This document shows positions 1,454 through 4,822 of a DNA stretch of 24,283 nt, piece after piece (position 1 is the stretch's first letter; every line of letters starts with the position of its first letter). The position numbers and the translations under genes are program-made. Under the pieces are notes generated by a model, which did no database searches, was not told the DNA's origin, and saw nothing but the letters and a program-made list of their open reading frames with translations. This DNA comes from a virus: IMG/VR virus record IMGVR_UViG_3300018432_000568, positions 1 through 24,283 of that record, one strand, 5' to 3'.

Positions 1454-2233
1454 ATGAGCAAAGAGATCGAGCTAGAGTGCCCCTCTGGGCTTCGCGTACG
1501 GCTTCGCGGGATCAAGGGCAAAGACCTAGACGGGTTGCGCGACAAGCGCCGTGTGCAGACCGGAGAGGCCTTTAGTCGCCTACTCGACGAGTGCACGCTC
1601 GAGGTGATCGACCACGGGCCCTACAGCAAGGAGGGCGGCTGGCGTTGGGCTAACGCTCTCGTCGGCGACCGAGTGCGCGCTCTGATCGGGGTACGCGTGG
1701 CCACGTCTGGCACTCTCTACGCGTTTCGCGCTCGGTGCTCGAACGAGGATTGCCGAGCCTGGATCGATTGGGAGGTCGACATGCTCGACTTGCCGATGAA
1801 GCGGCTCTCGGCCGAGTCGCGAGCGACGTATCTCGCGGGCAACCGGTTCGAGACGATCGTCGGCGAGAAGCTCGTGACGTTTCATCTGACGACGGGCGAG
1901 GATCAGGTCCGTGCGTTTCGCAAGCGTGAACAAGTCGCTGCTTCTGCGAAGCGGCAACAGCGCGAGTCGGGTTCATCGGAGTCGAGCGGGCAGGGGCAGA
2001 TACTTCTCGGGCTCGCGATGCGCATCGTCGAGGTCGAGGGCGAGCCCGACATCGTCACGTTTCTCGGTGAGCTAGATCTCGGCGAGGTGCATCGTCTCAG
2101 TCGCGCGATGGATCTAGCTGACTGCGGCATCGAGACGACGATCGACATCGTTTGCGACAAGTGCTCGGAGGTCACTTCCACGGAGCTCCCTTTGGACGCG
2201 ACGTTCTTTCGACCGGTGACTACAACGACCTAG
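1454..2233 (+). CDS. Tail assembly chaperone, T4 gp26-like, frameshift donor
   Basis: A 259-residue protein starting at the ATG at 1454, chosen because AAGGA at 1441-1445 forms a Shine-Dalgarno; an upstream in-frame TTG at 1418 lacks one. The segment around residues 71-110 (GDRVRALIGVRVATSGTLY, then CSNEDC at 95-100, then IDWEVDMLDLP) and a second Cys pair CDKC at 234-237 match the pattern of T4 gp26-like baseplate/tail assembly proteins, in which cysteines probably bind zinc. The gene sits just before the tape measure, where tail assembly chaperones are encoded. Nine codons downstream of the second Cys pair the heptamer C CCT TTG (2188-2194) is in the correct phase for -1 slippage; the zero-frame product ends at a TAG after 12 more residues. 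Family assignment is by pattern only. Confidence 0.72.
   Translation: MSKEIELECPSGLRVRLRGIKGKDLDGLRDKRRVQTGEAFSRLLDECTLEVIDHGPYSKEGGWRWANALVGDRVRALIGVRVATSGTLYAFRARCSNEDCRAWIDWEVDMLDLPMKRLSAESRATYLAGNRFETIVGEKLVTFHLTTGEDQVRAFRKREQVAASAKRQQRESGSSESSGQGQILLGLAMRIVEVEGEPDIVTFLGELDLGEVHRLSRAMDLADCGIETTIDIVCDKCSEVTSTELPLDATFFRPVTTTT
2188..2194 (+). promoter_or_regulatory. Candidate -1 programmed frameshift heptamer CCCTTTG
   Basis: The heptamer is phased C CCT TTG in the reading frame of the 1454 gene, so it fits X XXY YYZ exactly with X=C, Y=T, Z=G. Slippage re-pairs the two tRNAs on CCC and TTT and enters the frame that stays open to 2478. It lies in the 79-base overlap of the two frames. No clear downstream pseudoknot was found by eye. 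Confidence 0.65.
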
Positions 2234-2478
2234 AGATCCTTGCTGCAGTGCTGCCGTCGCTCGAAACGCCCGACGACGACGGCGGCGAGACGCGGCCTCT
2301 CAGCTGGCAAGAAATCCGATTCGAGTTGATGTGGACGCAGCACGGCGGATCGGGGCTTGGGATGTCATTCGCAGAGGTCAACGACCTCGACGTCGACGAG
2401 ATCTTTTGGCTGTTCACGGCGCAGCGTGCACGACGTACGAAAGAGGGCGAGGCCCTCAAGCGAGCGGGTAAGAGGTGA
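2194..2478 (+). CDS. Frameshift extension of tail assembly chaperone (GT-type product)
   Basis: This is the -1 frame relative to the gene starting at 1454, open to a TGA at 2476-2478. Read through the slippery heptamer it adds 94 residues, giving a 341-residue fusion. The added domain is acidic and helical (DYNDLEILAAVLPS, LSWQEIRFELMW, MSFAEVNDLDVDEIFWLF) with a basic KRAGKR end. The frame has no convincing independent start: TTG at 2152 and GTG at 2161 lie inside the upstream gene without a Shine-Dalgarno, and the first ATG is at 2362. In many long-tailed phages a G/GT pair made by programmed frameshifting lies exactly here, and the T part binds the tape measure. Boundary 2194 is the first base read after slippage. 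Alternative: a separate gene from 2161. Confidence 0.7.
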   Translation, partial: GRDVLSTGDYNDLEILAAVLPSLETPDDDGGETRPLSWQEIRFELMWTQHGGSGLGMSFAEVNDLDVDEIFWLFTAQRARRTKEGEALKRAGKR

Positions 2479-2518: not shown

Positions 2519-4822
2519 GTGGCGCTCAACAACCTCGGGCTCGGCTTTCTTTTCAACGCGCAGGACATGGCGTCCGGCACGATGAAGAAGCTTGGAGCCA
2601 ACCTCAAGGGGCTCGAGGAACAGTCGGGCCACTCGATCGGCAACATCGATCAGATGGTCGCCAAGCTGAGCGGCGGTCTCGCAGCCATGGCGATCGGCGC
2701 CGGCGGTCTCGCCGCTGCATTCTCGCTTGCCGGCGCGGCTGCGAAGTTCGAGACGGCGACGGCTCAAGTCGGCGCGGTGGCCAATGCAACCGCGGCCGAG
2801 CTGATCCAGCTCGAGGACGCGGCGATCCGGTTGAGCAAGTCGCGCGGCTTCGCGCCGACCGAGGCGATGCTCGGTCTCAACGAGCTGGCGCAAGCCGGCT
2901 TCGATGCGAAGACGTCGATCGAGTTGCTCGATCCCGTGCTGCTACTCGCAGCCGGTTCGCTTGGCGACCTCAACCCGCAAGAGTCGGCGGGCGTCGTCTC
3001 GCAGGCGATGAAGGCGTTTTCGATCGAGACCAAAGACGCCGGCATCATGGTCGATCAGATGCTTGGCGCGGGCATGGACTTCGCGATGGGTGCGAAGGAT
3101 CTGCCGATCGCACTCGGTCGAATCGCGAGCGGCTCGATCGCGATGAATCAGAACATGACCGAGTCGATGATCACATTCGGCATGGTCAAGAACGTCATCG
3201 GCGGAGCCGAGGTCTCTGCGACCGCTGTCAGCTCGGCATTCTTGCGCCTCGCCGATCCCGAGGTCGCGAAGATGATGCACAAGCAAGGCGTCGAGGTCGC
3301 GGACTCGAGCGGCAAGTTTCGAAGCTTTCTCGACATCATGAACGACCTGCAGCCCGCTCTCGGAAAGATGACGGAGCAAGGCAAAGCGGGCTTCTTGAAA
3401 AAAGCTTTCGGAGAGGATGCGTTGAAGGCTGTCAACGCGGTGATCAGTCAGCTCGAGACGGGCAAAGAGGGCGTCGACGGCGTGATGCGCAAGGGCGCAG
3501 ACGTGACCGAGTATTACCGCAACCGCATGATCAACATGGGCGGTACGGGCGAGATCTTTGCGAACAAGATGCTTGCGACGTTCGAGGGCGCAGAGAAGCA
3601 ACTCGCGGGATCGTTGGCCACGATCGCGATCAAGATTGGCGAGCCGTTCAAAGACCTTTTCAAACCGGTGATCGTCGGGCTCACGATGGCCGTCGATTGG
3701 CTCGAGGGCTTGCTAAAGAGCCTGAGCCCCGAGGTCAAAAAGTGGGGCGCGTTGCTGCTCGTCGGCGGATCCGCTCTGCTCGTAGTCGCAGGCGCAATGT
3801 CCGTCATGTTTGCGATCGCCCCGATCTTTGCGGGCGGTCTCATGGCGCTGTCGATCGGCTTCTCGGGCTTCTCGATCGCACTCGGCGCCGCACTCGTTGC
3901 AGCATGGCCTTTCGTGCTCGCAGGCATTGCGATCGCTGCGGTGGTCTACGCGATCCAAGAGAACATCGGCGGGATGGGCGATGTCTGGGATCGCATGGTC
4001 GGCATGTTCTCGGGCGGCGGCGAGGTGCTCAAAAACATCTTCAACAAGGTGCTCGGGTTCGTCGTGCCGCTTTGGGAGGCCCTCAAAGAGGGATTCGGTA
4101 GCGCGTGGGAAATGATGTCGCCTGTCTTCGGCATGATGTCGACGGCATTCGACGTGCTACTCGACGCGTTCTCGAGCTTGGGCGAGACGTTCGACTCGAC
4201 TGCGAGCGGGCCCGGTACGTTTCTGATGAATGTGTTCCGCGGGATCGGCAAAGTCGTGTCGTTCTTGCTCAGTGGCGTGATGATGCTGATCACGTTTTTC
4301 ATCTTCTTCGCGAGCATCGTCGCGCACGTCGTGACCGGCGCATTCAGTCTGATCAAGACGGTCTTTCTCGGTCTCTACGACGCGATCGCGTTCTACATCG
4401 ATGCATTCATGGATTGGATGAAGGTGCTCGGTAAGGGCATCGACGTGATCAAGGGTTGGCTCGGCATCGAGGTCACGGCAGATCCGGTCGAGCAGAAAGA
4501 AGCGCAGTCCGACGCGTACGGCTCGGTCAAGTATCGCGGGATGGCGGATCCGAATACGACTCCCGATCCTCGAGTGAACGCGGCGCCGGCAGACGAGATC
4601 ACGGCGGCGACCGAGGCGGAGCTTTATTACAAGTCGAACATGCCAGCGACGCCGGATCCGAAAGAGAACGCGGATCAGATCGGCAACTCAGTCGCTAAGG
4701 CTCTGCAGAAGATGCCACTCGTCGTCAACATGGACGGGCAGAAGGTCGGCGCGATCATCGCGAGCGCGGCTCGCTCGGACATGGCGCGTTCAAGCTCAAG
4801 CAACGTAGCGAGTGAGCGATGA
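2519..4822 (+). CDS. Tape measure protein
   Basis: A 767-residue tail tape measure protein. The N-terminal third matches the phage tape measure domain of the TP901/TIGR01760 type: a TAQVGAVANATAAELIQLE helix, the LNELAQAGFDAKTSIELLDP segment, LADPEVAKMMHKQGVEVAD, and KAFGEDALKAVNAVISQL. Two long hydrophobic blocks follow, at about residues 409-479 and 578-627, typical of tape measures whose segments enter the host membrane. The C-terminus (from about 655) is polar and Pro/Asp-rich. At the usual rule of about 0.15 nm per residue this implies a tail near 115 nm. The start is a GTG at 2519 without a Shine-Dalgarno, directly behind a dyad and hairpin. It overlaps the next gene by four bases (ATGA). 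Confidence 0.92.
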   Translation: MALNNLGLGFLFNAQDMASGTMKKLGANLKGLEEQSGHSIGNIDQMVAKLSGGLAAMAIGAGGLAAAFSLAGAAAKFETATAQVGAVANATAAELIQLEDAAIRLSKSRGFAPTEAMLGLNELAQAGFDAKTSIELLDPVLLLAAGSLGDLNPQESAGVVSQAMKAFSIETKDAGIMVDQMLGAGMDFAMGAKDLPIALGRIASGSIAMNQNMTESMITFGMVKNVIGGAEVSATAVSSAFLRLADPEVAKMMHKQGVEVADSSGKFRSFLDIMNDLQPALGKMTEQGKAGFLKKAFGEDALKAVNAVISQLETGKEGVDGVMRKGADVTEYYRNRMINMGGTGEIFANKMLATFEGAEKQLAGSLATIAIKIGEPFKDLFKPVIVGLTMAVDWLEGLLKSLSPEVKKWGALLLVGGSALLVVAGAMSVMFAIAPIFAGGLMALSIGFSGFSIALGAALVAAWPFVLAGIAIAAVVYAIQENIGGMGDVWDRMVGMFSGGGEVLKNIFNKVLGFVVPLWEALKEGFGSAWEMMSPVFGMMSTAFDVLLDAFSSLGETFDSTASGPGTFLMNVFRGIGKVVSFLLSGVMMLITFFIFFASIVAHVVTGAFSLIKTVFLGLYDAIAFYIDAFMDWMKVLGKGIDVIKGWLGIEVTADPVEQKEAQSDAYGSVKYRGMADPNTTPDPRVNAAPADEITAATEAELYYKSNMPATPDPKENADQIGNSVAKALQKMPLVVNMDGQKVGAIIASAARSDMARSSSSNVASER

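Follow-up and report, generated by a model that had tools for sequence, protein, structure and literature searches.

Comparative evidence for a programmed -1 frameshift in a probable T4-type tail assembly chaperone gene at a conserved C CCU UUN heptamer

The window, which is the whole stretch of DNA that was analysed in this work, is a linear virus record of 24,283 bases, and its left end encodes a contractile tail. Two overlapping frames in this tail region, gene A and the extension that we refer to as domain B, are best explained as one gene for a T4-type tail assembly chaperone whose long form would be produced through a -1 shift at the heptamer C CCU UUG. We place the probability of this reading at about 0.9, based on sequence comparison. 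Such comparison gives strong evidence for a programmed -1 shift, and it is also from comparison that the signal, the fused frame, the selection acting on B, and the homology to T4 gp26 and gp51 are apparent. The locus is ordinary in kind and well supported.

We infer the slip itself, its rate, and the chaperone role of the products from the data described below. Most ribosomes would terminate at the A stop at 2233, which gives the short form. Some of the ribosomes would slip back one base on C CCU UUG, where tRNA-Pro would shift from CCU to CCC and tRNA-Leu from UUG to UUU, and the slipped ribosomes would make the long form, A(1-247)-B, with 94 residues of B. Lambda G/GT, T4 gp26 (A alone), and T4 gp51 (A and B in one frame) suggest by analogy that the tape measure protein would be coated by many short and a few long copies, which would recruit tube subunits and then leave.

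Tail gene order

The tail genes and the features of the A-B locus lie on the plus strand. The C-terminal part of the tail sheath protein is encoded at 7-477 by a gene that enters from the window edge (phrog_15814, 7.5e-54; phrog_17610 'tail sheath', 1.9e-30). It is followed by the gene for a tail tube protein of the T4 gp19 type at 493-963 (Pfam PF06841, 2.6e-29; phrog_4542, 3.7e-31). The tape measure protein (767 aa) is encoded at 2519-4822 (phrog_1533, 1e-45; PF10145, 4.1e-25). Profile matches 3' of the tape measure gene identified a CIS-type tube-like protein, a LysM protein, and baseplate hub proteins. The A-B locus sits between the tube and the tape measure genes, as in chaperone pairs of the G/GT kind.

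Slippery heptamer and frame overlap

Gene A (1454-2233) encodes 259 aa. The codons at the site are CTC CCT TTG GAC, and the heptamer C CCT TTG (2188-2194) is in exact X XXY YYZ phase with A, as an earlier note on this DNA had claimed. After the preceding stop, the -1 frame stays open from 2122 to 2478 and overlaps A by 112 nt. Counted from the first TTG, the overlap is about 80 nt, which agrees with the 79 bases and the open frame to 2478 described in the earlier note. The reading after the shift would be CCC TTT GGA CGC and stays open to the TGA at 2476-2478. The predicted fusion therefore consists of A(1-247) and the 94 residues of domain B (2194-2478), joined as TELPL followed by GRDVL, and the last 12 residues of A are lost. 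All four cysteines of A (C95, C100, C234, and C237) are N-terminal to the shift point. The proposal that the shift would swap these 12 residues for a 94-residue domain and leave both cysteine pairs intact is thus borne out by the sequence. A +1 shift in the window was rejected, since the +1 frame hits TGA two codons past the FF codons.

In-phase XXXYYYZ heptamers occur 14 times in the 5943 codon steps of the genes of the window, and 0.064 are expected in the 27-codon overlap. This chance expectation is only suggestive when taken alone, and it is the conservation that decides. The earlier remark that CCCTTTG is not the commonest slippery site stands insofar as this site is rare among published ones, but CCCTTT is near-invariant in the clade of the window. 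The lambda slippery site is GGGAAAG. Slippage on CCCUUUG is less neat than on CCCUUUC, with tRNA-Leu(CAA) re-pairing incompletely with UUU.

Conservation of the site among relatives

A strict search with A identified one close relative (L002), and anchoring on the tube protein identified L014, L015, and L017. The alignment of A yielded 49 viral loci and a further 20 on contigs of bacterial genomes, of which nearly all are labelled as Myxococcota or Deltaproteobacteria. The search for close relatives with B alone returned no match because it relies on strict peptide patterns. The stop of A, the three frames, the in-phase heptamers, and the match to the B profile were scored by script for each locus. 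Near-duplicates were dropped at 90% nucleotide identity.

The in-phase heptamer C CCT TT[CGAT] was found in 38 of the 40 non-redundant representatives from viral contigs and Myxococcota, each of which had been chosen for having one of the heptamer sites, and A AAT TTT was found nearby in the other two. The site forms are CTC CCT TTC (31), CTC CCT TTG (4), CTC CCT TTA (1), ATC CCT TTC (1), ATC CCT TTT (1), and A AAT TTT (2). The last form lies a few codons downstream of the usual site (L038 and L061). L002, in which A is 87% and B is 73% identical to the window, has the identical heptamer at the same place. B is in the -1 frame wherever it was matched in clade members with undisturbed A. Among the loci examined, no clade member is known that has an intact 3' end but lacks a heptamer, and the two readable relatives that do not have CCCTTT carry another heptamer.

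Six loci were left out and counted neither way, either because the A frame is broken in the contig (L058, L085, and L086) or because they end too early (L049, L056, and L057). One locus (L084) was counted for the heptamer only, as its -1 frame closes after 23 codons without a match to B. The contig of L042 has the heptamer and ends before B. L054 and L055 have the heptamer and an open -1 frame that does not match the B profile. L038, L039, and L061 do not have CCCTTT and carry A AAT TTT at FF codons, where the site has moved and a heptamer is retained.

Synonymous conservation was scored against codon usage in 208 columns of a codon alignment of 36 clade members. Codon 246 (CCT in 35/36) ranks first and codon 245 (CTC in 32/36) ranks second of the 208 columns, with an excess of 0.61 and 0.56, respectively, compared to a mean of 0.06 (sd 0.12). 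CCT accounts for 16.8% of proline codons in the clade loci, and it is rare at other conserved prolines (P10, 8/36; P114, 2/28; P254, 2/32). Codons 225-244 show no comparable excess in this alignment, and therefore the constraint begins at the heptamer. The relatives share ancestry, so these counts are not independent, and the control columns are subject to the same relatedness.

The two frames would likewise be joined in an mRNA made by RNA polymerase slippage, and long T runs elsewhere (TTTTTTT) could permit such slippage in the clades that have them. The runs at this locus consist of only three C and three T, and polymerase slippage normally needs longer homopolymers. The exact codon phase C CCT TTN is also expected of ribosomes and not of polymerase. 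We regard polymerase slippage as extremely unlikely here.

Two observations were made on the loci in bacterial contigs. Three distinct copies of the locus (L071, L076, and L081) are found on three contigs of one Archangiaceae genome bin (JAACJQ). Terminase-like matches occur on the contigs of L070 and L075, where the contig match was deduced from record numbers, and therefore at least some of the bacterial copies are phage or prophage.

Domain B as a protein

B has a match (5.5e-9) to the 63-position orphan family phrog_20255. The alignment of 35 B sequences from the relatives exhibits the core motif W/Y-x-QHGGSGL...E-A-x-K and a charged C-terminal helix. The AlphaFold2 model of B (pLDDT 77) has a long C-terminal helix. 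This model has no fold match (all E above 1), an absence that means little, and PDB sequence searches with A and with B gave no match. Over the 79 codons past the A stop, the comparison of the window with L002 gives dN 0.188, dS 0.730, and dN/dS 0.26, and the differences at codon positions 1/2/3 of the -1 frame are 14/15/27. This pattern indicates that B evolves as a protein in the -1 frame.

A single -1 step restores one long frame, as would also be expected if the disjoint frames were a decayed or mis-sequenced single gene in which no shift is used. Tens of independent contigs nevertheless share this layout, B shows indels of codon scale and the dN/dS given above, and A retains its own C-terminal codons (TFF) and stop. 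The relatives have already refuted decay or sequencing error, which would survive only if all of the contigs share one artefact and has a negligible probability.

Independent initiation of B

Three start-type codons precede the B core in the window; none of them is ATG and none has a Shine-Dalgarno sequence of at least 4 nt, in line with the earlier claim that the downstream frame has no Shine-Dalgarno start. In three clade members (L024, L028, and L061), the -1 frame is closed by a stop about one codon ahead of the heptamer, and the stretch from there to the B core contains no ATG, GTG, or TTG. A -1-frame stop also lies within about 12 nt of the heptamer in L041 and L051. Candidate starts with a Shine-Dalgarno are scattered, namely a GTG with GAGG at -36 in a related subgroup and a single ATG in L065 and L055, and no relative in the clade consistently has both a Shine-Dalgarno and an ATG for B. 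Because three members have no start codon and the Shine-Dalgarno starts are scattered, independent initiation of B appears to be excluded in L024, L028, and L061 and unlikely across the clade.

These data bear on the alternative that B is a separate small protein, made from its own start codon or by re-initiation after the A stop through translational coupling. Such an arrangement is seen in the distant relatives Cygsa01 (L092) and Vibrio D508 (L098), which have a TAATG stop-start overlap, no heptamer, and B annotated as its own gene, and the cyanophage gp51 is also annotated as a short separate gene. In the clade of the window, however, there is no recurring start preceded by a Shine-Dalgarno, and a separate B leaves the extreme conservation of CTC CCT unexplained. 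We consider a separate B very unlikely and retain the -1 shift as the preferred reading.

In L092, L098, and L099 (Ackermannviridae SJ2), B comes after gp26 in the -1 frame, and there is no heptamer. The TAATG overlap of L092 and L098 suggests that coupled translation may be a third route to B.

Relation to T4 gp26 and gp51

A matches PHROG 150 over residues 4-256 (E 2.7e-8), and T4 gp26 is also in PHROG 150. T4 gp51 matches a longer stretch of this family (13-280 of 282) compared to gp26 (14-235). In profile alignment, gp51 spans the whole A-B fusion end to end, whereas gp26 covers the A part only. B alone, as a profile that pools the window and its relatives, matches the C-terminus of gp51 with an hhalign E of 2.6e-5, compared to 0.53 for gp26. 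The B of L060, a +1-type relative, matches phrog_634 'baseplate hub assembly catalyst' (9.2e-6) at positions 68-117 of 121. The four cysteines proposed in the earlier note are present and invariant in the 39-sequence alignment. The description of a gp26-like protein joined by a -1 shift to a second domain before the tape measure is likewise supported by comparison.

The window and T4 are alike in the gp26-like full length of A, in the end-to-end match of A-B to gp51, and in the shared N-terminal part. They differ in that T4 has two separate genes and no frameshift according to the citing papers, whereas the window has one gene with a -1 site. A full-length separate gene for the long form is absent in the window, where the long form is encoded by A and the -1 frame only. 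The cyanophage and Ah1 loci also have no such gene, and because of this, a separate full-length gene is not family-defining.

The AlphaFold2 model of A (pLDDT 94, pTM 0.90) matches predicted phage baseplate hub subunits in BFVD, the best being baseplate hub subunit E of SP-15 (1.1e-15). Among solved structures, the HK97 tail assembly chaperone 2ob9 (Z 6.0, residues 1-86) and YqbN 3klu (Z 5.7) match best, and both fall on A residues 1-87. They rank first and second of 303 chains, with the next at Z 3.8; these Z values are modest and below 8, and Foldseek alone gives E 1.6. The likeness of the N-terminal part of A to the HK97 chaperone and YqbN is a lead rather than proof. The earlier statement that A does not have the lambda G fold is unsupported, as the best (weak) solved match to this part is the HK97 chaperone. 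In the A model, the shift point at residue 247 comes directly after the last strand (240-244) and would be a sensible domain boundary.

It has been reported that gp26 and gp51 are T4 hub assembly chaperones of unclear mechanism, in the part of a 2010 review that concerns them (PMC3004832). The short and long products might instead be structural parts of the baseplate hub and not tape measure chaperones: PHROG 150 bears the name 'baseplate hub', and genetic data with contradictory results, as outlined in the same review, place gp26 in the hub. The review also describes gp51 as absent from the particle, and short and long chaperones in T4-like phages have been published, as cited in PMC10885494 and PMC12846349. 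The gene order of tube, A, B, and tape measure and the best solved fold matches, which are tail chaperones, also argue against structural hub parts, which we consider unlikely. A and A-B would thus be the short and long forms of a T4-type tail assembly chaperone and, by analogy, the counterpart of lambda G/GT.

Comparison with known systems

G-T frameshifting of tail chaperones has been described as widely conserved 'except T4' in a passage of a 2016 review (PMC5009743). According to PMC10885494, Vladimirov, Gautam & Davidson (2022, Virology 566:9) reported that T4-like phages do not shift but encode the short form and the long fusion in two genes. PMC12846349, with reference to Vladimirov 2022, states that -1 shifting at polyT signals is known from other T4-like phages. 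The chaperone assignment and the -1 principle in T4-like phages are therefore not new, judging from these two citing papers. The idea that gp26 and gp51 account for the missing frameshift of T4 is already published, as the same citing papers show. Together with the published gp26/gp51 assignment, the loci in this work show the frameshifted state among relatives of T4's own genes, in contrast to the 'except T4' of the 2016 review.

The locus differs from lambda gpG/gpGT (Xu, Hendrix & Duda 2004; PMC5009743) in an additional cysteine-bearing region of A and in B, which is similar to gp51 and not to lambda T. The phage Adele and Vandenendeviridae/Andersonviridae, as presented in PMC12846349, also have an unannotated -1 extension between the chaperone and tape measure genes and a conserved slippery motif. 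The motif in Adele is GTTTTT, whereas it is CCCTTT here, and the proteins are likened by layout and motif. More generally, the sites described for other T4-like phages in the citing literature are polyU, and the site of the window is CCCUUUN.

The cyanophage locus (Sullivan 2010, PMC3037559) is similar in that T TTT TTC precedes the stop of gp26 and B lies in the -1 frame. It differs in its slippery site and in having been published, in the relevant text of that paper, as a truncated gp51 that is about 200 N-terminal residues short. A frameshift from gp26 would supply the first 200 residues and offers an explanation for their absence from the gp51 of that account. The searched text of PMC3037559 contains no mention of frameshifting for cyanophage gp51. 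In three cyanophage loci (L093, L094, and L088), the annotated short gp51 resembles the frameshifted end of gp26.

The findings in this work assign a function to an unannotated extension and to an orphan family, phrog_20255, that occur in phages associated with Myxococcota and other groups. They also show that the predicted long chaperone goes unrecognised by gene callers in many genomes of T4-like phages.

Shift direction in other T4-like clades

Cyanophages, Aeromonas Ah1, pf16, OLIVR5, Atu_ph04, and Bhz51 have an open -1 frame and, immediately upstream of the gp26 stop, T TTT TTC or T TTT TTT. The B profile scores well in most of these polyT -1 loci, but not in Bhz51.

In two other clades comprising 96 loci, B is in the +1 frame at the same junction, with T-rich sites. 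These +1-type loci (L101-L210 and L003-L006, L008, and L010) include SP-15, LIS04, Immuto, and Mel-JY01-type phages, and B is mostly unannotated in the phage records, for example in SP-15, LIS04, and Immuto. The sites at the FF codons are typically TTT TTT TGG CCT or TTT TTT CGT and are near-invariant. In 10 members of one +1-type clade, B was not scored by the profile in either frame, but these loci have an open frame-shifted ORF in +1. All but a few of the +1-type sites would be explained if tRNA-Phe moved forward by one base, from UUU to UUU or UUC. A -2 shift would be possible only at long T runs.

It is likely that, within one family of homologous chaperones, shifts in opposite directions lead to the same long form. 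The clade of the window and several T4-like families would use -1 (C CCU UUN, U UUU UUC/U, and A AAU UUU) and two clades would use +1 (UUU UUU UGG CCU or UUU UUU CGU), with the junction fixed just after the last strand of the short form, and in T4 a second gene would have taken the place of the shift. Two features are apparently new, the near-invariant C CCU UUN site and the clade-specific shift direction at one fixed junction. Should the +1 clades be confirmed, a single junction would have persisted while the direction of the shift changed, and this would be a good natural test of what selection holds constant.

Candidate stimulators of the shift

Downstream RNA structure was rejected as a stimulator because no stable structure was found downstream of the heptamer in the window (z +1.5) and only two of the ten relatives that were folded look structured (L020, z -5.3; L017, z -2.3). 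The Rfam search of the window returned no match. A Shine-Dalgarno-like GGAGGT (2167-2172) lies 15 nt upstream of the heptamer in the window and is a possible stimulator. In the clade, Shine-Dalgarno-like 4-mers cluster 5-9 nt upstream of the heptamer and end 9 nt upstream in 22/38; the 4-mer at this 9-nt spacing is missing in the window, and part of the clade pattern follows the amino acid codons. These elements give only a hint that an upstream Shine-Dalgarno-like sequence may stimulate the shift.

Additional sequence features

A perfect 9-bp inverted repeat lies at 2487-2506, between the stop of B and the start of the tape measure gene. It consists of CCCGGGGTT, then TA..., then AACCCCGGG. 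A block of 30-odd bases around it is identical in L002, while the flanks diverge. The tape measure start is GTG without an obvious Shine-Dalgarno, and the inverted repeat could be a regulator of tape measure translation.

An unlisted ORF of 40 codons, MARNEPLVVGVRLSW...GGALYQWLF, follows the tube gene at 967-1089. It is hydrophobic and possibly encodes a small membrane protein. A similar ORF, MQPLVVGVRLSW...GGALYAWLTS, is present at the equivalent place in L002.
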